Shown piece after piece: positions 6,715-61,031 of a stretch of 64,000 bases of DNA. The notes under the pieces are model-generated. The model did no database searches, had not been told where the DNA came from, and saw only the letters and a program-made list of their open reading frames with translations. Position 1 is the first letter of the stretch; each line of letters starts with the position of its first letter. The position numbers and the translations under genes were made by a program. The stretch spans positions 115,716-179,715 of IMG/VR virus record IMGVR_UViG_3300032268_001078; one strand, 5' to 3'. This DNA comes from a virus.

Positions 6715-7221
6715 TTACAACAGCTTGTTGGATTTTCGTCTATTTTCTGTAATTAGTAAAGGCTGAGTATTGGTATAATGAAAAGTTCCTTTTTTACTAA
6801 GAGGAATAATATGATCTATTTCCCAATAAGTTCCCCAATTGTCCCATGACATTTCTGAAGTAAATTGATTTTCTAAATGTTGTTTGTAAACTTGAATATC
6901 ACAACCTAAGTACTCGTCTGTACTTCTGTCTTTTTCGTCTTTTAAGCTATTGTAAATTCTAGCTCTTAAAGCTTCTTTTAATTTTACTTCAGGATTTTGT
7001 CTTCGTTTTCTAGCAGCCTCAGTAAGTTGTTGAGTTCTATGTTGTTTTTGTTTAGGAGATAAATTAGCTAATCTGTTTTTATGATAATCTCCTGTATATT
7101 TTGACTTTTCTTTTTCCTTTCTGCAGGATTTACAACCACTCAACATACCACTTTTGTGATCTTTACTTTTATAATACTCAGTAATAGATTTATCTACACC
7201 ACAGATTGTGCATTTTATCAT
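6715..7221 (-). CDS. Free-standing HNH endonuclease
   Basis: 168 residues. The N-terminus has a Cys4 zinc knuckle (CTICG at 4-8 and CKSCR near 30-34). The C-terminus holds the HNH core 'EIDHIIPLSK' followed by 'NTQPLLITENRRKSNK', with 'W..WGTYWEIDH' before it. Such proteins are phage homing endonucleases that cut a neighbour's intronless allele. It sits alone between the capsid gene terminator and phoH, consistent with a mobile insertion. The ATG is preceded by a late-type motif that lies beside the terminator's T-tract (7227-7234). Confidence 0.88.
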   Translation of the reverse strand: MIKCTICGVDKSITEYYKSKDHKSGMLSGCKSCRKEKEKSKYTGDYHKNRLANLSPKQKQHRTQQLTEAARKRRQNPEVKLKEALRARIYNSLKDEKDRSTDEYLGCDIQVYKQHLENQFTSEMSWDNWGTYWEIDHIIPLSKKGTFHYTNTQPLLITENRRKSNKLL

Positions 7222-9002: not shown

Positions 9003-10385
9003 TTATTTAATTCCAGCTAGTTTTTGCATTCTTGAAATTTGATCATCAGCTTTAATAATTGGTTGGCTTGCTGGGCGACCACCGATTACTTTACTAGCAA
9101 ATGATGTTTTATTTTCTGTTAAAGCTTTTTTGTTAGATGATTTTTTGATAGTTGTTTTCAAAATTTCATAAACATTTTTAGCTTCGTTTAATGATGTAGC
9201 TTTATCAAAAGAACTAACTACATTTACTTTTTGACCTTCAGTTAAACTGTTTGCTTTGAAAATACGATTAACGTAAATCAATTTAGCGTTTAATAAATTA
9301 ACTTCGTTTAATTGACCACGAAGAGTTCTGATGGTACGAATGGCTTCTTTCAATTCTTCTTCTTTAGATTCATCTACATCACCTTTCATCATTTTTTTCT
9401 TTTCCATCATAGCTTTGATTTTAGATTTCATAGCTTCTTTCATGTCATCTTCTTCTTCTTTAATTACTTTAGGTCCTTTATATTTACCTTTCATAGTAAT
9501 TGCAGCAAGATTCTTTTGAGGAGCTACTCCACCTGATGTTCCAGCTTTTTTAGCTTCGTCCATTTCTTTTGGTTCACCTTTGTAACCTTTACGTTGTTTC
9601 ATAGCTTCGTAAAGAGAATAAAGTTCTTCTAATTCTTCTTCTTCAGATTTTTTCTTTTTAGGTTTAGATTTAGATTTTTTGTCTTCTTCACCTTCTTCTT
9701 CACCTTCTTCTTCAGTTTCTTCACCTTCCATTTCACCACCTTCAGCGTCAAAGTTGAAATCCATGTTCATGTCTTCTTCACCTCCCATGTCTTCCATGCC
9801 TTCTTCACCACCTAAACCAGCAGCTTCAAGTTCAGCTCTGATGATTTTTTTAAGTTCATCAACTGTAACTTCACCAATTCCTTCACTTCCTGAAGCAGCT
9901 TCATTTTCCATGTCGAACATTTCGTTCATCATGTCTTCTTCTTCATTTACTTCTTCACCTTCTTTTTCAAGTTCACGTAAGATTTCTTCAAGATCAAAGT
10001 TTTCTTCCATTCCTTCTTCTTCGGAAAGTTCAGAATCCATTTCATACACAGAACCATCACCATCCATGTCTTCTTCTTCAAGAGCATTAAATAATTCTTC
10101 TAAGTCGATTTCTTCTTCAAGACTAGTGTTGTCATCAGGATCATAATCCATTCCTTCTTCTACTTCATTTTCTTCATTCATAGAAATTAGATCTAAATTA
10201 CGATCTGAATTGTAAATTTCTTCCATCTCATCTTTTTCATCATCTCTCATACGTTTTTCAAACATAGCTGAAATACGTGGTGCAAATGATTCTTCAAGAG
10301 AGGCTTTTGCATTGGCAACGGCAGCTTCACGTAGAGCTTTAGCGTCAGCAATGGCTTCTTCGAATAATTTTTTGTTATTTGACAT
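9003..10385 (-). CDS. Prohead scaffold/core protein, gp22-like
   Basis: 460 residues, extremely acidic in the first two thirds (long Glu/Asp runs about residues 50-240), then a Lys-rich stretch and an alpha-helical C-terminus. Position between gp21-like protease and gp23-like capsid genes is the T4 scaffold position. It has several (L/I)xE sites (QLNEV, SLTEG, SLNEA, ALTEN) that the prohead protease could cut to clear the core. The C-terminus 'RMQKLAGIK' is a motif seen again in two other proteins of this window. Function is assigned from composition, position and length rather than a catalytic motif. Confidence 0.82.
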   Translation of the reverse strand: MSNNKKLFEEAIADAKALREAAVANAKASLEESFAPRISAMFEKRMRDDEKDEMEEIYNSDRNLDLISMNEENEVEEGMDYDPDDNTSLEEEIDLEELFNALEEEDMDGDGSVYEMDSELSEEEGMEENFDLEEILRELEKEGEEVNEEEDMMNEMFDMENEAASGSEGIGEVTVDELKKIIRAELEAAGLGGEEGMEDMGGEEDMNMDFNFDAEGGEMEGEETEEEGEEEGEEDKKSKSKPKKKKSEEEELEELYSLYEAMKQRKGYKGEPKEMDEAKKAGTSGGVAPQKNLAAITMKGKYKGPKVIKEEEDDMKEAMKSKIKAMMEKKKMMKGDVDESKEEELKEAIRTIRTLRGQLNEVNLLNAKLIYVNRIFKANSLTEGQKVNVVSSFDKATSLNEAKNVYEILKTTIKKSSNKKALTENKTSFASKVIGGRPASQPIIKADDQISRMQKLAGIK

Positions 10386-10526: not shown

Positions 10527-11159
10527 TTATCTTATACAACAAACTCCGGTTTGGCTACAAATAATATCTGTAACTAACGAATGGATTTTATTGTAAGGAT
10601 TAGTATTTGTATTATAATTATAATTTTTAGATTCATTTAATCCACCTACTGGTCTCATATAAGCACCATGTGTAGATGGCGTACTTACAAAATCCCAACA
10701 AACTAAATCAAAATCATCTTGTACTTCAACTGTGTTTTCATTCATGGGTGTTGTTGAACCCATTCCACGAGATGAAATACCTACTGTAATATTATTTAAA
10801 AATAAATGTTTTAAAATATTTCCTGAAGGAGTATCTAAAACTTCTATGCGACCAAATAAATCATCACCGTCCCACCATAATTTTTGAATATTATGACAAA
10901 CATTTTTAAGATTAATTACTGATGATTCAGGATGATCTAATTCTCCTAATGCTCTATTTTGAGCAATAGGTCCTTGAATGTATTTTGCAACTTCTCTTTC
11001 TAGAATTCCTTTAGGGTAAATACGGCCATTTTCATTTTTAGCATTAGCCCGTTGTACAATACCTTCTACAATTAAATTTTTAGAAGGATTCATCCTTGCC
11101 TCATGTAAATTTTGGGCAATAGGTTTAAAAGGAATATATTCTATTAAAATTTGAGACAT
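10527..11159 (-). CDS. Prohead protease, gp21-like
   Basis: 210 residues. Contains 'NGRIYPKGILEREV', the histidine motif 'GELDHPESS' (His76), and the serine motif 'VGISSRGMGS' (Ser129/130), then 'DLVCWDFVSTPSTHGAYMRP'. This is the T4 gp21 / herpes-assemblin type Ser-His protease. It should cut scaffold, capsid and packaged internal proteins at (L/I)xE. Its start shares one base with the preceding gene's stop (TAATG), suggesting coupled translation. Its likely substrates in this window are discussed in the findings. Confidence 0.93.
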   Translation of the reverse strand: MSQILIEYIPFKPIAQNLHEARMNPSKNLIVEGIVQRANAKNENGRIYPKGILEREVAKYIQGPIAQNRALGELDHPESSVINLKNVCHNIQKLWWDGDDLFGRIEVLDTPSGNILKHLFLNNITVGISSRGMGSTTPMNENTVEVQDDFDLVCWDFVSTPSTHGAYMRPVGGLNESKNYNYNTNTNPYNKIHSLVTDIICSQTGVCCIR

Positions 11160-26007: not shown

Positions 26008-26328
26008 TTATTTTTCTCTTATTAATAACTCTCCTAACACCTCTAAACGTCCAACTTCTCGTTGAAATTCAATTGGTGTCATATTTAATGATATTTTTTT
26101 TAATGTTTGTTCAAATTCCTTTTCAGCAACTTCTTTATTAAATTTGCTTTCAGTAGCTTTTTTATAGTAAGGAGCTTTAACTTTAAAGTGATGCCATGTT
26201 AATAAAGCTAAACCACCTTTTTCTTTAGCATTTGAAGCTATTTTAGCAGCACCTTCACCACGTTTTTTGGCAAACTCTTCAAAAGTTTCTTTCTTTATTT
26301 CTAATAATAATTTTATCAAGTTTATCAT
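26008..26328 (-). CDS. Small helical protein with N-terminal tag
   Basis: 106 residues, unrecognised. Begins 'MINLIKLLLEIKKETFEEFAKK', matching the MIxLxxLLxE tag (LLE|I) of the 52.7-56.2 kb proteins. The middle 'LALLTWHHFKVKAPYYKKA' is aromatic-rich; the rest is charged helix. Its ATG shares a base with the previous stop. Possibly a packaged head protein (inference). Confidence 0.7.
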   Translation of the reverse strand: MINLIKLLLEIKKETFEEFAKKRGEGAAKIASNAKEKGGLALLTWHHFKVKAPYYKKATESKFNKEVAEKEFEQTLKKISLNMTPIEFQREVGRLEVLGELLIREK

Positions 26329-27757: not shown

Positions 27758-28227
27758 TAGTATCCTGGATCTTCTTGACCGCCTGTAATAATATTTTTAG
27801 GATTTTTGTTTATTTTTTGATTATTAACTTCTTCACCATAAAGATAACCATAAACTGATTGTAAATAGTCTTCAGCTTTAGTTAATTTAGCTTGAACCCA
27901 TGCATCTAATTGTTCTTCTTGATCAATCATGTCACATAACCCTGTAGATAATCGTTTAATATTAGAAAGTTGACTGTAAGCCATATCAGCTTCATCATCT
28001 TTTTGCATCCAATCGTCTTCATATAATTTTTCTTCTAAATCAGTAGCATCATGGTGCATTTTAACAGGTTGTTCATCCATGTTTTTAGCAATAGCCATCC
28101 CACGTTTTTTTTCATACGGTGATATTATATCATCCTTGTTTAAGTCTGATTTTTGTCTATTGAATGGAACTGCTTCATTCATTGCTTGTTTTAAGCGCCA
28201 TTCGTGTATATCAAAATTATCCTTCAT
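27757..28227 (-). CDS. Hypothetical protein with MKDNFDI-type tag
   Basis: 156 residues. Begins 'MKDNFDIHEWRLKQAMNEAVPF': the first seven residues are nearly those of the proteins starting at 55222 (MRDNFDLHKW) and 57937 (MKNNFDIKKF), and a NE|A site follows at the same distance. The body is charged helix with 'DDWMQKDDEADMAY'. No domain recognised. Shared tag suggests it follows the same route as the other two proteins, possibly packaging with cleavage by the prohead protease. Confidence 0.7.
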   Translation of the reverse strand: MKDNFDIHEWRLKQAMNEAVPFNRQKSDLNKDDIISPYEKKRGMAIAKNMDEQPVKMHHDATDLEEKLYEDDWMQKDDEADMAYSQLSNIKRLSTGLCDMIDQEEQLDAWVQAKLTKAEDYLQSVYGYLYGEEVNNQKINKNPKNIITGGQEDPGY

Positions 28228-28858
28228 TTGCGAATTCTGTTAAAGAGTTATGTAATTTTACTTTTGTGAATTGGTGAGATATTTTTTCTACTGCTTGTTT
28301 TAGTTTTTCTTTACTGTATTTTGAGTTTTTATCTAATGGGAATTCGATATTAACTGCGTCTTTAGAGTAATAAACCAAAGGTAGTTTTTGTTTTTTCAAT
28401 GTATTTAATGCTTTATCACGTAATTGTTCAGTATCAAATACTAAACCTATATTTAACTCAGCTTCTGTTGATTTTGTTTTATCTTTTTTTTCGTCTTTTT
28501 CAAAAATACCAGCTAATTCTTGCATTCTTTTAATTTCATTTGCTGAACCAGCAGGTAAACCTTCACCAGATGCGCGACCGGGTTGGCTATTATTATAATT
28601 ATTCCAAACTGAATCAATACTCATCTCAAAATCTTCTTCAGGCCCCAGATCAAATTCTTCTGGTTCTATTAAACCAATATGAAATTTTTCTAAGTATGGT
28701 TCTACTTGTCCACTTGCCATAAATTCAGTTACTTCATCTGCATCTCCATCAAAATACTGAACTAAGTCCTCATAAAGATTATCAAAATCCTCATCAGTCC
28801 ATTTCATGATAATATTCTTATCACGATATTTGAAGAATATTCTGTCTAAATCGTTCAT
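28217..28858 (-). CDS. Hypothetical protein with RMQxLAGI motif
   Basis: 213 residues. N-terminal acidic helical half, a central linker with 'KRMQELAGIFE' (111-120), then a C-terminal alpha/beta domain (about 135-205: 'LNIGLVFDTEQLRDKALNTL...VNIEFPLD') and 'SLTEFANEG'. The RMQxLAGI motif recurs at the C-termini of the scaffold protein and the 52704-54041 protein. ends in SLTE. Function unknown; likely virion-associated. Confidence 0.7.
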   Translation of the reverse strand: MNDLDRIFFKYRDKNIIMKWTDEDFDNLYEDLVQYFDGDADEVTEFMASGQVEPYLEKFHIGLIEPEEFDLGPEEDFEMSIDSVWNNYNNSQPGRASGEGLPAGSANEIKRMQELAGIFEKDEKKDKTKSTEAELNIGLVFDTEQLRDKALNTLKKQKLPLVYYSKDAVNIEFPLDKNSKYSKEKLKQAVEKISHQFTKVKLHNSLTEFANEG

Positions 28859-52703: not shown

Positions 52704-54041
52704 TTATCTAATTCCAGCCATTCGTTGAATTCTTTCAAGTAAAGCATTATCAGCATCATCTGCTGTTAAATCACTTCTCATTTGACTAAACATACCTTTC
52801 AACTGATTCATTTGTTGAGGTGTTATTCTATCATTAATAATATTAGTAATTAATTGAATAAATTCATTATTTTCTAATTTATAAATATCTTGTAAAAAAT
52901 CGTCTCTTTCAGCTGGTGTAACATTGGTTTCTAATTTATTAATTACATCTTGTAAACCTTTAGCTATAATTTGACCATAAGCAATATCTTCAGGTTCATT
53001 TTGAATTTTATCAGTATATTTAACTACTTTTTCTCCTCTTTCTAAATCACTAAAACCAAATAAACCAATAATTTCATACATTCCTTTTACAATTTCATGA
53101 ATTAATACTGGAAAACAAATAGCTCTTGCTTTAATAATCCATTTTTCTTTTTCAAAATCAAAATAAACACTTTCAGCTCCTACACTACTATCTTCCATTG
53201 GTGATCCACCCCCTCCTGACATTCCTAACATAAAATCAATCATATCAAGGGCCGCTTGCATTAAATCTCTGTATTTATCACTTGCACCTTCTCCACTAAC
53301 AATATCAACATATTCTTGTTGAACATAATGAGCTGTTTTACTTAAACTTGCTCCACCTTGAGTTACAGAATTAATAAGTCTTCTTTTCATTAATTCACCT
53401 GTTAATTCTTCAGCTTCATCTTCTTCTTCTTCATCCATTTCAGGTGTATTTAAAGCATCTTTAACTTGAGATTGTGGAACTATTTTAGCATCAATTTCAA
53501 TAGCATCAGTTTGTGCTAAATAAGGATAAGCTTCATTAACAACATCTAAAGCTAGTTGTTCTAATAAATCTTCGTTTCCTTTTTCCATTTGCATTACTTG
53601 CATAGCAAGTTGTTGCATTTGTCTTCCTACTTGCATTGGATTTTTACCTTGAATCCTTTGAGCAACTCCACCTTTAAGTTTACCTAAAGTTTCAGGATCA
53701 AAAATTTTATCATACTCAGCTTCATTTAATTTATCAAATTCAGCCTTATATCTAGCTACAATTTTATTCATAATACTATTTGAAGCTTCTTTCATTCCAG
53801 CTGGTTTTGGTTTTGGACCGTTTTTAGGAGCCTGATGTGGTTTTTCTGTTCCTTTAGTTTGAGCTTTAGGAGCTGGTTTAGGACTAGTAGCTGGACTTGG
53901 AACAGAACGTCTTCTAGGTTCTGGTCTTGTAGAAGGTCTTCCTGGCATTACATCCGGTTGAGGAGCTTTTCCTGGTTGTTCCTGAGGAGCTCTTTGTGGA
54001 GCAGCAGGACTTTCATTTAAAAGATTTTTAAGCTTAATCAT
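52704..54041 (-). CDS. Tagged virion-type protein with RMAGI C-terminus
   Basis: 445 residues. Starts 'MIKLKNLLNESPAAP' (LLNE tag), followed by a Pro/Arg/Lys-rich linker of about 70 residues that begins right after the candidate cut. Then helical body with 'FDKLNEAEYDKIFDPETL', 'LALDVVNEAYPYL', an acidic patch, 'AESVYFDFEKEKWIIKARAICFPVLIHEIVKGMYEIIGLFG'. C-terminus 'LLERIQRMAGIR' resembles the scaffold end 'RMQKLAGIK'. Probably a head-core or packaged protein; not recognised by name. Confidence 0.75.
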   Translation of the reverse strand: MIKLKNLLNESPAAPQRAPQEQPGKAPQPDVMPGRPSTRPEPRRRSVPSPATSPKPAPKAQTKGTEKPHQAPKNGPKPKPAGMKEASNSIMNKIVARYKAEFDKLNEAEYDKIFDPETLGKLKGGVAQRIQGKNPMQVGRQMQQLAMQVMQMEKGNEDLLEQLALDVVNEAYPYLAQTDAIEIDAKIVPQSQVKDALNTPEMDEEEEDEAEELTGELMKRRLINSVTQGGASLSKTAHYVQQEYVDIVSGEGASDKYRDLMQAALDMIDFMLGMSGGGGSPMEDSSVGAESVYFDFEKEKWIIKARAICFPVLIHEIVKGMYEIIGLFGFSDLERGEKVVKYTDKIQNEPEDIAYGQIIAKGLQDVINKLETNVTPAERDDFLQDIYKLENNEFIQLITNIINDRITPQQMNQLKGMFSQMRSDLTADDADNALLERIQRMAGIR

Positions 54042-54229: not shown

Positions 54230-55222
54230 TTATTTATAAGGATCTAAAATATAACCATCTTCCATTTTATTTTGTACCATATTAATAGAAAATTTACTAA
54301 TATATTCACTATTATCTTTCTTAAGTAAAACACTATTACCTTCAAAACCTACTATATAATAACTAGATTCAGAACTTATCACTCCAGGTTCAATAGTATC
54401 TCCTTTACCTAAATAAATAATATTAGGGTTAAAGTCTTTAGCCATTTCTAAATCATCTGGTGTTAATTCAAATTTTTCATTTACTTTATCTAAAATTTTA
54501 ACATCAACTTGTAAGTCTTCCCATTCATTTTCCCAAGGTGATTCATAATAATCTTCAGGTATATCTTCAATAACTTCATCACCTTCTAGTATTTTTCTCA
54601 TTAAAAAATCACTATCCCATAGATTATCATAAATAATTGATTCAATTTCTTCTGGGTTATAAGGAATAGACATTCCTAATTCTCTTTCTAAATCTTCACT
54701 ATTAATTATACATTTAGTCGTTTTTTCAATTAAATCATTCTCTTCATCTTCATAATTATAAAAATTATATGTTGAATGACTTATTATTTCAATATTAAAA
54801 TCTTGGAAATGTTTAGCTAATTCTAAATCTTCGTCTCCTAAAGAAAATTCTTCTTCTTTTAATTTAGGTTTAGGTAAAATTATTTTATGTCCATTTGAAA
54901 GCATTTTTTGAACATCATCAAGATCCATTTTAAATACATTACGTGGCTCACCTTCTTCAACTAAATTTATTTTCCAAACAGCAACACCATTTTTATCTTC
55001 TTGATATATTTTTTGAACAATAAAATTACCATTTCCTATGTATCTGTAAATTATATCTGGATTTTTAAACATATTGGCATTGATTTTACTGCCTTTTGTT
55101 ATGTTTTGATTTTGAAGACCCTTAGCTAATTCTAAATCGTTATCTCCTAAAGAAAATTCTTCTTGTTCATTTAAGAATAATTGATATTCTTTCCATTTAT
55201 GTAAGTCAAAGTTGTCTCTCAT
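54230..55222 (-). CDS. Modular FELGDEDLELAK-repeat protein (three units)
   Basis: 330 residues from ATG 55222 (MRDNFDLHKW); the ATGA overlap with the previous TGA supports this start over a codon 15 nt upstream. Three modules begin 'EEFSLGDNDLELAKGL' (21-36), 'EEFSLGDEDLELAKHF' (124-139) and 'EKFELTPDDLEMAKDF' (249-264), each after a possible (L/I)xE or VNE (FLNE, KLKE, KVNE). Modules 1 and 3 end in a beta-rich body ('GDTIEPGV', 'KGSKINANMF'), and module 2 in an acidic helical body. Bodies resemble those of the 56234-57937 protein. No known domain recognised. Confidence 0.8.
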   Translation of the reverse strand: MRDNFDLHKWKEYQLFLNEQEEFSLGDNDLELAKGLQNQNITKGSKINANMFKNPDIIYRYIGNGNFIVQKIYQEDKNGVAVWKINLVEEGEPRNVFKMDLDDVQKMLSNGHKIILPKPKLKEEEFSLGDEDLELAKHFQDFNIEIISHSTYNFYNYEDEENDLIEKTTKCIINSEDLERELGMSIPYNPEEIESIIYDNLWDSDFLMRKILEGDEVIEDIPEDYYESPWENEWEDLQVDVKILDKVNEKFELTPDDLEMAKDFNPNIIYLGKGDTIEPGVISSESSYYIVGFEGNSVLLKKDNSEYISKFSINMVQNKMEDGYILDPYK

Positions 55223-55608
55223 TTTGTTTTTCCCCAAGTTTTACCTTTACCTTTTCTTTTACATCCAGCTGGAGTAGGTCTACAAGCAGGATACTTTGAT
55301 CTTACTTCACCTTTTTTTCTTCCACAAGCTTTATAACCTCCTTTTCCATCAGGAGCATTACAATCTACCCAACCACCTTCTTTACCTTTTGGACCTGAAC
55401 GTTTAAACCACTTATGAAGCGATTCATCTTCATTAACTGTTTCTTCAGAAATTCCTTTCCAAATTTCACCTCTACGACATCTAACTACAGCACCTGACTT
55501 ATAAGCTGATGGTTTGTCAAACTTACGATCAGCAATTCGAAGACATCTGTCTCGTTTTGATTTTTTTTCAGTAAGAACTTCTGTTAATATATTTGTAAGT
55601 TTAATCAT
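55219..55608 (-). CDS. DUF5872-like Cys-rich protein with tag
   Basis: 129 residues. Starts 'MIKLTNILTEVLTEKKSKRDR' (ILTE, VLTE sites). Then 'CLRIADRKF...SAYKSGAVVRCRRGEIWKG', a motif common to phage proteins. C-terminal 60 residues 'LHKWFKRSGPKGKEGGWVDC..PDGKGGYKACGRKKGEVRSKYPACRPTPAGCKRKGKG' match the DUF5872 pattern (WFKR, GWVDC, CGRKKGE, YPACRPT). Basic; probably binds nucleic acid; function unknown. Confidence 0.8.
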   Translation of the reverse strand: MIKLTNILTEVLTEKKSKRDRCLRIADRKFDKPSAYKSGAVVRCRRGEIWKGISEETVNEDESLHKWFKRSGPKGKEGGWVDCNAPDGKGGYKACGRKKGEVRSKYPACRPTPAGCKRKGKGKTWGKTK

Positions 55609-55846
55609 TTATAGGTTCCCACCAATTAGTACAATATTCATCAGCTGCATAAGGAATTTTATTTGTACCTGCCCAATCACTGTAATAAGTACTTGTACAA
55701 ATTTGTTCTTCTTTATTCCAAAATTTACAATTAGCACAACAAGAACCTCCTTTAGGTACTTTTAAACCGGCTTTATGGGTTGGAGGTAAAATCATTTCAC
55801 CTTTACCACCATAGTTTTCTGTTAATATGTTTGTAAGTTTAATCAT
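55601..55846 (-). CDS. Small Cys-rich protein with tag
   Basis: 81 residues from ATG 55846 (MIKLTNILTENYGGKGEM); the frame extends to 55996 but that part lies inside the preceding gene. 'KGGSCCANCKFWNKEEQICTSTYYSDW...IPYAADEYCTNWWEP' has five Cys in a HiPIP-like or zinc-like arrangement. Tag ends LTE|N. Shares eight bases with the next gene. Unknown role. Confidence 0.75.
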   Translation of the reverse strand: MIKLTNILTENYGGKGEMILPPTHKAGLKVPKGGSCCANCKFWNKEEQICTSTYYSDWAGTNKIPYAADEYCTNWWEPIND

Positions 55847-55847
55847 A

Positions 55848-56237
55848 TTACCATTTTCTACAAGACCAATAGTTTGCTTTATGGCGAGGACCTGGATTAT
55901 CACAATGGTGTCTTGCTCTATAAGCTGCTCTTCGTTTAGGATTATTTTTCTTAATAACCATTCGTTTACCTTTAGCACTTTTGCCTCCAAAACCAAAATT
56001 TACTTTAACTACTTTACCTTTAGGATTTTTAACATATACCTTAAATTTTTTGATGTCACCTTGCATAGGTTTACCTAATTGTACCTTACGACCTTTGTAT
56101 TCTGCTTCACGTAAACAAGAATCACAATCAGTAGATTTATATTCTCTCATAAATTGAATAAACGATCTAACATCATCAATGTTTTCAACATCGTATTCTT
56201 CAATTTCATTATTAATAAGTTCAGTTAATTTTATCAT
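55848..56237 (-). CDS. Basic phage protein with RRxxYRARHxCxNPGPRHKANYWSC motif
   Basis: 129 residues. N-terminal 'MIKLTELINNEIEEYDVENI' (tag with INNE), middle 'AEYKGRKVQLGKPMQGDIKKFKVYVKNPKGKVVKVNFGFGG', and C-terminal 'KKNNPKRRAAYRARHHCDNPGPRHKANYWSCRKW', a motif I associate with other phages. Cys pair 'CDSCLREAEY' near 38-41. Likely nucleic-acid-binding; not named. Confidence 0.78.
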   Translation of the reverse strand: MIKLTELINNEIEEYDVENIDDVRSFIQFMREYKSTDCDSCLREAEYKGRKVQLGKPMQGDIKKFKVYVKNPKGKVVKVNFGFGGKSAKGKRMVIKKNNPKRRAAYRARHHCDNPGPRHKANYWSCRKW

Positions 56238-57937
56238 CTGTTATAAATATTAGGTTCAATCATATATTCTGGTTTTAATAAATAATTAATATTTTCTATG
56301 TCGATATTAATTTCATTTCCATTTTCAGTATTTAAATAAACATAATTATCTTCAATCATAGAAATTGTCCAATTTTCATCACGATTATCAATAAAATTTT
56401 CTAAGTCAGGATTATTTGGATTCCACATATTAGGAGTAATTTGGTTACCTACTTCTAAGTATTTAATAACTTTTAAACCATTAGTTAATCCAATATCTTC
56501 AGGACCCATTTCAAAAGTTTCGTTTATATTATTTTCTAAATAAGCATCAAAATCACCAATTAATTCTTTATTAGTTATATTTAAATATGGTTCCATATCT
56601 CCATAATCATACATATCTAACATGTATTCTTTAATATTGTCTAATTCAAAATTAGCTTTAATTAAAATAGGAACAGCCCATTCTTTAAATTCTTCATATG
56701 TTTCTCCTGTCCAATTTTCTTCATCTAAACCTTTAGCCAGTTCTAAATCTTCATCACCCAACTCAAATGTTTCCTCTAAATCATTTTTACTAGGAATATA
56801 AGCATTTATATTATTCATAAGATCTTTATTAAAATAATCTACAGTAAAAGTATAAACATTCTCAGGACGCATAGCAAACTCAAATGCTACTATTTCATCA
56901 TCATAATAAACAAGTTCTTTATACTGGCCTTCATTTGGACCTATGTAAATAATTTTTTTAACAAGACTACGTATACGTGAAGGAGCATCTTCTAATTTTG
57001 TCCAAGCACCAGCATATTCAGGATTAGAACTATCATAAAAATAGTCTCCTACTTTAAGTTCACGTTTATTAAAATCTTTAGCTAGTTCTAAATCTTCATC
57101 TCCTAATTCAAAGTCTTCATTAACTCGATTTAAAGGTTTAATTAAATCAACAGTAACTTCCATTTCATCAAGATTCCAAGCATCTTGAGGAAATTTAGAC
57201 CAATTAATAGGATTAAATACTTTATAAGCTTTATCTTGAATCCACTCTTCAATAAGATGACTACTCCACAAATCAGCAGGTTGCCCAAGTTCCTCATAAG
57301 CTAATTCTATAAGACTTTCATAAAGTGTCTCTATAAAAGCTTTGTCTTTTAATTTACTAGGAATTTCATCTGCAGCATAAGTTTCATATGGACTGTATTT
57401 ATCAATTAATTCTACTAATTCATCAACACTATAGTGAAGTCTATAAGTAGTTTCATGATCAGGTACACTTGGAAATGCTTTAGAATCACTATTCCAATTA
57501 TAAATAAGATGAACGTCTACTTGTACTTCAGGTTCATCATTAAGTTGTTTTGCCAATTTTAAATCTTCATCTCCAAGTTCAAATGACTCGTCTATGGGTT
57601 CTGCTTCAATTCGAAATTCAGGTTTTAAATAACCATTAATTTCATGTAAATCAAAATCAAATTCATAGCCAGTTTGTTGTTGTAAAGTAATAAATTCTCC
57701 ATCTTCATCTGTGTCTATATTTAAAATATATAAGGATTTATCTTGAAAATTAGGATCAAATGACTCACCCCACATTTCAGGCTCAATAGTGTCACCTTGT
57801 GTTAAAAATTTAACATTTAAACCTTTAGCCAGTTCTAAGTCTTCATCACCCAATTCAAATTCTTCATTTATGATTTTTGAATTTCTAGTAACTTTGTTTT
57901 CAATAAGAAATTTTTTAATGTCAAAATTGTTTTTCAT
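56234..57937 (-). CDS. Modular FELGDEDLELAK-repeat protein (five units)
   Basis: 567 residues. Tag 'MKNNFDIKKFLIEN' (LIE|N at 11-13). Modules begin at about 25 'EEFELGDEDLELAKGL', 117 'ESFELGDEDLKLAKQL', 274 'EDFELGDEDLELAKDF', 389 'ETFELGDEDLELAKGL' and 473 'ETFEMGPEDIGLTNGL'. Each is preceded by INE, IDE, VNE, LEE or INE, close to (L/I)xE. Module 1 and 5 bodies are homologous ('LTQGDTIEPEMW...YLKPEFRIEAEP' and 'LEVGNQITPNMW...LLKPEYMIEP'). Module 2 ends like module 2 of the neighbour. Acidic overall. No known domain; possible cleaved polyprotein. ATGA overlap with next gene. Confidence 0.82.
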   Translation of the reverse strand: MKNNFDIKKFLIENKVTRNSKIINEEFELGDEDLELAKGLNVKFLTQGDTIEPEMWGESFDPNFQDKSLYILNIDTDEDGEFITLQQQTGYEFDFDLHEINGYLKPEFRIEAEPIDESFELGDEDLKLAKQLNDEPEVQVDVHLIYNWNSDSKAFPSVPDHETTYRLHYSVDELVELIDKYSPYETYAADEIPSKLKDKAFIETLYESLIELAYEELGQPADLWSSHLIEEWIQDKAYKVFNPINWSKFPQDAWNLDEMEVTVDLIKPLNRVNEDFELGDEDLELAKDFNKRELKVGDYFYDSSNPEYAGAWTKLEDAPSRIRSLVKKIIYIGPNEGQYKELVYYDDEIVAFEFAMRPENVYTFTVDYFNKDLMNNINAYIPSKNDLEETFELGDEDLELAKGLDEENWTGETYEEFKEWAVPILIKANFELDNIKEYMLDMYDYGDMEPYLNITNKELIGDFDAYLENNINETFEMGPEDIGLTNGLKVIKYLEVGNQITPNMWNPNNPDLENFIDNRDENWTISMIEDNYVYLNTENGNEINIDIENINYLLKPEYMIEPNIYNR

Positions 57938-59050: not shown

Positions 59051-59401
59051 TTATGCTTCAACTTGTTCTTCTACTTTAATCATTTTAGGTCTTCCTAGTT
59101 TATAAGTACCATTTGCTTTCATTTCAGCTATTCTATTTAATTTAATTTGACGAGCTGATGTCTCACTTACAGGTCTACCTAATTGTAATGTACCTTTTAA
59201 AGCTAATCTTTGTTGACGATTTGAATTTTCACTTACAGGTCTTCCTCTTTGAATAATAACACCTGATGCTTTACGTTCTTCTTGTTGTTTTAAACGTAGT
59301 TGACGAGGTGAGTTAGGGTTAACTGGACGACCTTTTTGTTTAACTGCTTCTAATTTAACTTCGTTTACTGTGATTTCTTGGTTTTTAATTTTCTTTGTCA
59401 T
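59051..59401 (-). CDS. AT-hook-repeat DNA-binding protein (paralogue 1)
   Basis: 116 residues, very basic. Four GRP cores at 24, 53, 75 and 103 in the form '(K/R)xGRPV(N/S)xxSxRQxxL', e.g. 'QKGRPVNPNSPRQ', 'QRGRPVSENSNRQ', 'QLGRPVSETSARQ', 'KLGRPKMIK'. GRP flanked by basic residues is the AT-hook core that inserts in the minor groove of AT-rich DNA. Paralogue of 60642-61031. Early bipartite promoter (59437-59475) and a terminator frame it as a single-gene unit. Confidence 0.75.
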   Translation of the reverse strand: MTKKIKNQEITVNEVKLEAVKQKGRPVNPNSPRQLRLKQQEERKASGVIIQRGRPVSENSNRQQRLALKGTLQLGRPVSETSARQIKLNRIAEMKANGTYKLGRPKMIKVEEQVEA

Positions 59402-60641: not shown

Positions 60642-61031
60642 TTAATTATCCCCCACACTTTCTTCATTCATTTGTTTTCTTAATTCACGTTGTTGTAATA
60701 CTTGTTGTCTAACTGAATTAACGTTAACAGGTCTTCCTAATTTAACTTTACCCCTTTTACTTAACATTTCTTGTCTTTTACTAGTTTCATTTACAGGTCT
60801 TCCACGTTTAATTTCAATACCCTGTTCTTTTAATTCATTAATATGATTTAATTTAGCTTGTCTTGATGAATTAGGGTTTACGGGACGACCCTTTTTCATT
60901 TCAATTCCACTTTGTTTTTTCAACTCTTGTTCTTGTAAACGTAGTTGACGAGGTGAGTTAGGGTTAACTGGACGACCTTTTTGTTTTACTTCGATCATAA
61001 CTGGTTGGTTTTTAATGTTTTTGTTTTTCAT
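60642..61031 (-). CDS. AT-hook-repeat DNA-binding protein (paralogue 2)
   Basis: 129 residues, basic. GRP cores at 19, 48, 77 and 99: 'QKGRPVNPNSPRQ', 'KKGRPVNPNSSRQ', 'KRGRPVNETSKRQ', 'KLGRPVNVNSVRQ'. Repeat period is 29, 29 and 22 residues with a 'L....ELKxQxGIE' spacer. Paralogue of 59051-59401, with 51 identical nt (60936-60986 and 59291-59341). Likely binds AT-rich DNA; role perhaps in replication or nucleoid organisation of this region. Promoter copy D upstream. Confidence 0.75.
   Translation of the reverse strand: MKNKNIKNQPVMIEVKQKGRPVNPNSPRQLRLQEQELKKQSGIEMKKGRPVNPNSSRQAKLNHINELKEQGIEIKRGRPVNETSKRQEMLSKRGKVKLGRPVNVNSVRQQVLQQRELRKQMNEESVGDN

Follow-up and report, generated by a model that had tools for sequence, protein, structure and literature searches.

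Modular proteins in a group of T4-like phages as candidate precursor polyproteins for internal head proteins of the T4 type

RNA viruses routinely make polyproteins that a viral protease cuts, and we know of no earlier description of polyproteins as a route by which tailed phages load the set of proteins inside their heads. The internal head proteins of phage T4 (IPI, IPII, IPIII and Alt) are made from one gene per protein, with short terminal propeptides removed. T4 gp21 cleaves after L/I-x-E (PMC9026906). Here, we analyzed a stretch of 64,000 nucleotides (positions 115,716 to 179,715, hereafter the window) that forms the end of the 179,715-base T4-like phage record IMGVR_UViG_3300032268_001078 in IMG/VR. 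Two modular proteins are encoded on the minus strand of the window, P0002 (567 aa, window positions 56234-57937) and P0001 (330 aa, 54230-55222), and we consider it likely that both are polyproteins from which internal head proteins of the T4 type arise. In the literature searched, no description was found of a phage polyprotein of this sort or of its N-terminal tag.

These proteins and their relatives resemble the T4 internal proteins in having a short N-terminal tag that ends in hydrophobic-x-E, fast-evolving bodies that are comparable in size, T4-type head genes and, encoded in the same genome, a gp21-type protease (Peptidase S77). Unlike in T4, a site occurs at every joint and is accompanied by a repeated block; a sequence relation was looked for and none was found. 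By this analogy, the polyproteins would work like T4-type capsid-targeted internal proteins, but they are a variant rather than a plain member of that class, because each gene contains 3 to 15 modules instead of one mature protein. A second parallel is offered by phiKZ and SPN3US, in which, according to the part of PMC10052503 drawn on here, head proteins are cut at x-x-E by gp175/gp245, long propeptides are cut repeatedly and S is preferred at P1' in SPN3US as well. However, the motif in those phages is S/A-x-E or A-x-E, the propeptides are removed, and that part of the source makes no mention of repeated homologous modules. The polyvalent proteins encoded by phages and by conjugative elements also have many domains per chain and are likely delivered to the host (PMC5512222), but they combine mixed enzymatic domains, often with a peptidase of their own, whereas the present proteins consist of repeated small domains that belong to no known family.

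Modular organization and the motif at the joints

The modular family comprised 7 proteins in 6 T4-like phages (the window phage and five relatives), with 3 to 15 modules each, and every module began with a short block. We collected the 12 residues preceding each block, which gave 64 linkers from the seven proteins. All 64 contained [LIVMF]xE (mean 30 and maximum 42 in shuffled linkers), and 55 contained the stricter [LI]xE (mean 20, maximum 30), while neighboring motifs of the same composition were not enriched in these linkers ([LI]E, 11; [LI]xxE, 13; [LI]xD, 6). P3 was occupied by L at 44 joints, I at 9, V at 5, M at 5 and F at 1, and P2 by nearly any residue. Chance is excluded as the origin of a layout found at 64 of 64 joints across seven proteins of six phages. 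At the level of sequence, the joint pattern is that of the T4 gp21 motif, L/I-x-E. Within module bodies, such motifs were depleted overall (59 vs. 77.6 in shuffled sequences, P 0.006); protein C-termini, viewed by eye for a lack of LxE, did not give a clean picture.

In the window, both open reading frames (ORFs) were present, with five blocks in P0002 and three in P0001; the mechanical ORF of the latter is 335 aa long from a TTG codon, and the start at MRDNFD gives 330 aa. The original prediction had described eight copies of a 16-residue block, each directly preceded by a tripeptide ending in E, and had read the two proteins as packaged chains cut by the prohead protease. The number of copies and their 5 + 3 distribution stood, but the strict 16-mer proved to be merely a consensus from which four of the eight copies deviate (FSLGD in two, FELTPDDLEMAK in one and FEMGPEDIGLTNGL in one). 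Seven of the eight blocks form a single DNA repeat family, and the distance from the E of the site to the F of the block is 1 to 3 residues. The tripeptides were exactly as claimed, and six of the eight agree with the strict (L/I)-x-E rule, the other two having V at P3. As for processing itself, comparative support is strong (a gp21-type motif at every joint in six phages, tags ending in the motif and a gp21 homolog in the window); packaging, cleavage and ejection are proposed steps.

All parts of the two proteins could be delineated on the minus strand. P0002 starts with a capsid-targeting-like tag (MKNNFDIKKFLIENKVTRNSKIINE, 57863-57937) containing two sites, LIE and INE, with a predicted cut after residue 25. 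Module 1 (57587-57862) follows INE, has the block FELGDEDLELAKGL and carries a type A, SH3-like body; module 2 (57116-57586) is preceded by IDE and has a type B-like body; module 3 (56771-57115) is preceded by VNE; module 4 (56519-56770), preceded by LEE, has a type C body that is 38% identical to module 2 of the relative G011; and module 5 (56237-56518), preceded by INE, combines the divergent block FEMGPEDIGLTNGL with a type A body. In P0001, the tag (MRDNFDLHKWKEYQLFLNE, 55166-55222; predicted cut after residue 19) is followed by module 1 (54854-55165; LNE, type A), module 2 (54476-54853; LKE, type B) and module 3 (54233-54475; VNE, type A). The proposed homology of P0002 modules 1 and 5 with P0001 modules 1 and 3 was borne out, as profile A1 joins all four, and the bodies of P0002 modules 1 and 5 are 41% identical over 74 aa. 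The pairing of the two second modules was weaker (28% identity).

The polyproteins of the relatives range from 862 to 1560 aa: G001 (1537 aa, 15 modules), G011 (1560 aa, 15 modules, matched by G012), G013 (1308 aa, 12 modules), G014 (953 aa, 9 modules) and G016 (862 aa, 5 modules). G001 was found among IMG/VR contigs picked by gp23 similarity, and the other four phages were recruited by body and block patterns. Single modules were also fused onto other proteins at two loci (L110 and L113). In the otherwise matching G012 sequence, the polyprotein frame contains a TAG codon (L165, near 8860), where G011 reads through, and module 4 of the G016 polyprotein (L164, 8508-11120) holds an insertion of approximately 300 aa consisting of low-complexity REKIKQDPEAYAKYLEK repeats. 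P0001 and P0002 had no match in Pfam, PHROGs or PDB sequences, no relatives of the polyproteins were detected among INPHARED phages or GTDB genomes, and P0002 as a direct query retrieved nothing from viral contigs; the earlier impression of an unfamiliar family therefore held. An exact-consensus block pattern gave three matches in IMG/VR, all of them unrelated chance hits. When the collected loci were scanned for LxE-spaced repeats, these polyproteins were recovered, and otherwise just gp22-like or low-complexity proteins.

N-terminal tags and head genes

In each of the seven polyproteins, the tag finishes with hydrophobic-x-E, and the first module starts right after the last site of the tag. 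One tag is common to P0001, G011 and G016, and another to G001 and G013. The tag of G014 has 10 residues with an ILE-like end and has I8 and E10, equal to the length and the processing positions of the capsid-targeting sequence of T4 IPIII. The P0002 tag was present on at least 93 distinct proteins, mostly small and diverse, in the fetched loci, and among the matches listed, 87 of 93 had a second [LIVM]xE, in most cases close to position 21 or 22. Eight of 11 long contigs bearing a P0002-type tag encode an S77 protease. Flavobacterium phages immuto, the nearest isolated phages by gp23 (~64%), carry four copies of this tag type. The tags are capsid-targeting-like, with a putative role in targeting.

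The presumed cutter is a prohead protease homologous to gp21 (10527-11159, minus strand; Pfam Peptidase_S77, PF03420, E 8e-33; PHROG head maturation protease, E 5.8e-54), and G001 also encodes an S77 protease (E 4.3e-32). The major capsid protein gp23 (PF07068; 7287-8975, minus strand) has a predicted maturation site after E59 (IVE), placed by eye alignment to T4 gp23, together with a conserved LLE whose E is residue 9. In 71 gp23 sequences, E59 was invariant at the expected maturation site and P3 was V, I or L; therefore, V at P3 is probably acceptable in the window group, including the VNE joints. Another head-cluster protein (28217-28858) contains a ninth copy that resembles the block and is preceded by LIE (GLIE-PEEFDLGPEEDFEMS).

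Several further features of the window deserve description. The 28217-28858 protein also contains KRMQELAGI, and the motif RMQ-x-LAGI / RIQRMAGI, internal in this protein, occurs at the C-terminus of both the gp22-like protein (9003-10385) and the 52704-54041 protein; it may serve as another docking signal within the head core. A start resembling MIKLxxLLxE was observed in five ORFs (26008-26328, 52704-54041, 55219-55608, 55601-55996 and 55848-56237), and this start is a second class of capsid-targeting-like tag. Among these, 52704-54041 (minus strand, tag MIKLKNLLNE) anchors the polyprotein locus by synteny: in G001, G011, G013, G014 and G016, the polyprotein adjoins its homolog directly or one gene apart (in G001, the polyprotein lies just upstream with one gene between). 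Two small basic proteins are located between P0001 and P0002 on the minus strand, one with the tag MIKLTNILTE and DUF5872-like similarity just above the cut-off (55219-55608), the other with the tag MIKLTELI (55848-56237). Proteins with three to four AT-hook-like repeats of the GRPVNPNSxRQxxL type are encoded at 59051-59401 and 60642-61031, and similar proteins sit near the polyprotein in L161 and L163. An HNH-like endonuclease ORF (6715-7221) is flanked by the gp23 gene on one side and by a PhoH-like ORF on the other. The T4 late-promoter box, TATAAATA, occurred at chance frequency and was uninformative.

Module bodies, blocks and alternative explanations

Modules are mostly ~80 to 160 aa in size and have three body types: A (SH3-like, most copies), B and the rarer C, which is presumably helical, as judged from its sequence. 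AlphaFold models of types A and B had confident cores (mean pLDDT 86.6 and 85.4, respectively) and low-confidence ends that coincided with the cut-site positions, so the modelled bodies are predicted to be folded domains with disordered ends. The suggested cargo of small peptides is thus better described as small proteins. No known fold was matched with confidence: in fold searches, module A showed weak similarity of the SH3-like or tudor-like kind, and module B gave no match. Neither Pfam nor PADLOC gave a credible enzymatic, peptidase or defence-related domain in the polyproteins; a ZorA match of P0004 was discarded, as it sits in a low-complexity lysine/glutamate stretch.

Predicted folding bears on the explanation that survives best besides internal proteins, namely that the polyproteins belong to the prohead core (scaffold), as T4 gp22, gp67 and gp68 do, and would be cut at many LxE sites with most pieces leaving the head. 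We regard this as improbable. Several L/I-x-E sites in the T4 proteins are cut by gp21, the resulting fragments mostly leave the head (PMC9026906), and the polyproteins share an acidic character with the gp22-like protein of the window, which has an isoelectric point of 4.45 and 18 [LI]xE sites. However, the scaffold of T4 is mostly removed as peptides, whereas here the sites lie at the borders of predicted folded domains and are depleted inside the bodies, and the gp22-like protein is encoded by a separate gene. Turnover of the polyproteins is also unusual for an essential scaffold: between the window and G011, four neighboring genes are 84-99% identical, while the polyproteins are 28-30% identical and differ in block type. 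Such divergence is as expected for fast-evolving cargo and points away from scaffold. Since those neighbors are so similar and the block type is different, co-evolution of the block with a conserved core protein is also weakened.

Still less probable, in our opinion, is that the proteins are uncut structural proteins of the beads-on-a-string type, with hydrophobic-x-E as an inherited linker. Paralogous modules can pass on a linker with each copy, and many LxE sites arise elsewhere by chance, but fixed P3 and P1 positions contrast with variation at P2, at P4 and in the distance to the block, D does not substitute for E, and the tags finish in the same motif. The codons of the blocks, detailed below, argue in the same direction. 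Block identity was 0.60 within a phage vs. 0.34 between phages, whereas body identity was alike within (0.29) and between (0.28) phages, and homologous bodies may have differing blocks (P0002 module 3 and G001 module 8: body 48%, block 9%). Because the block differs between phages, these comparisons indicate that it is not itself the cleavage signal; the sole constant is hydrophobic-x-E. At block positions with the same residue, codons differed as codon usage predicts (window, 0.69 against 0.67; G001, 0.57 against 0.58), and in four of the six phages the synonymous codons of block copies matched random draws from codon usage, with a small excess of similarity in the other two, G011 and G013. 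Recent gene conversion behind the block uniformity was rejected, since synonymous codons are largely randomised; for the same reason, the copies are old and their conservation needs selection, and the uniformity is mostly held at the protein level.

Finally, effectors in the style of polyvalent proteins, injected whole and acting or self-cutting in the host, have a precedent in multidomain phage proteins of up to 15 domains that are predicted to be injected (PMC5512222), but we give this explanation hardly any weight, as no recognisable enzymatic, peptidase or defence-related domain was found in Pfam/PADLOC beyond the low-complexity chance match, the modules repeat few domain types rather than an effector mix, and the joints fit the prohead protease.

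Proposed pathway and its implications

Under the internal head protein reading, a short N-terminal capsid-targeting tag would carry the precursor into the prohead core, where a gp21-type protease would cut after hydrophobic-x-E, in most cases L/I-x-E, both at the end of the tag and between all modules. Cutting would free folded domains of ~80 to 160 residues, each beginning with a phage-specific block; the freed domains would stay inside the head and, as T4 internal proteins do, probably reach the host along with the DNA. Cleavage at the joints is the best-supported of these proposed steps and retention in the head a less certain one, and ejection and the function of the modules are guesses from T4.

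Several observations weigh against this pathway. The depletion of interior motifs was not significant in the window's own modules, many interior [LI]xE sites persist, and the joints are not fully independent because the modules share ancestry. Most modules are acidic, whereas the internal proteins of T4 are basic. The S77 protease was checked in the window and G001 only, the other polyprotein contigs being fragments. In addition, NFDLKKYLVENK-tagged proteins in immuto and G002 sit among replication genes rather than head genes. At these loci (L288, 1803-2318; L108, 4069-8203), the surrounding genes are those for SSB, recombinase and polymerase.

More tentatively, with odds that we would place somewhat below even, some T4-like phages, probably of Bacteroidota, may load an arsenal of as many as 15 small domains in the form of a single true polyprotein, whose cut domains would bear a phage-specific N-terminal address block kept uniform by selection and read by a variable partner (other blocks, a phage protein or a host factor), in a cassette that turns over fast between close relatives in an arms-race-like manner. 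If the internal head protein reading is correct, many small domains would be delivered in a fixed ratio by a single targeting tag. This would account for a group of phage proteins that are large and unannotated, and the combination of tag and LxE-spaced repeats would provide a predictive rule for head-internal proteins in metagenomic phages.

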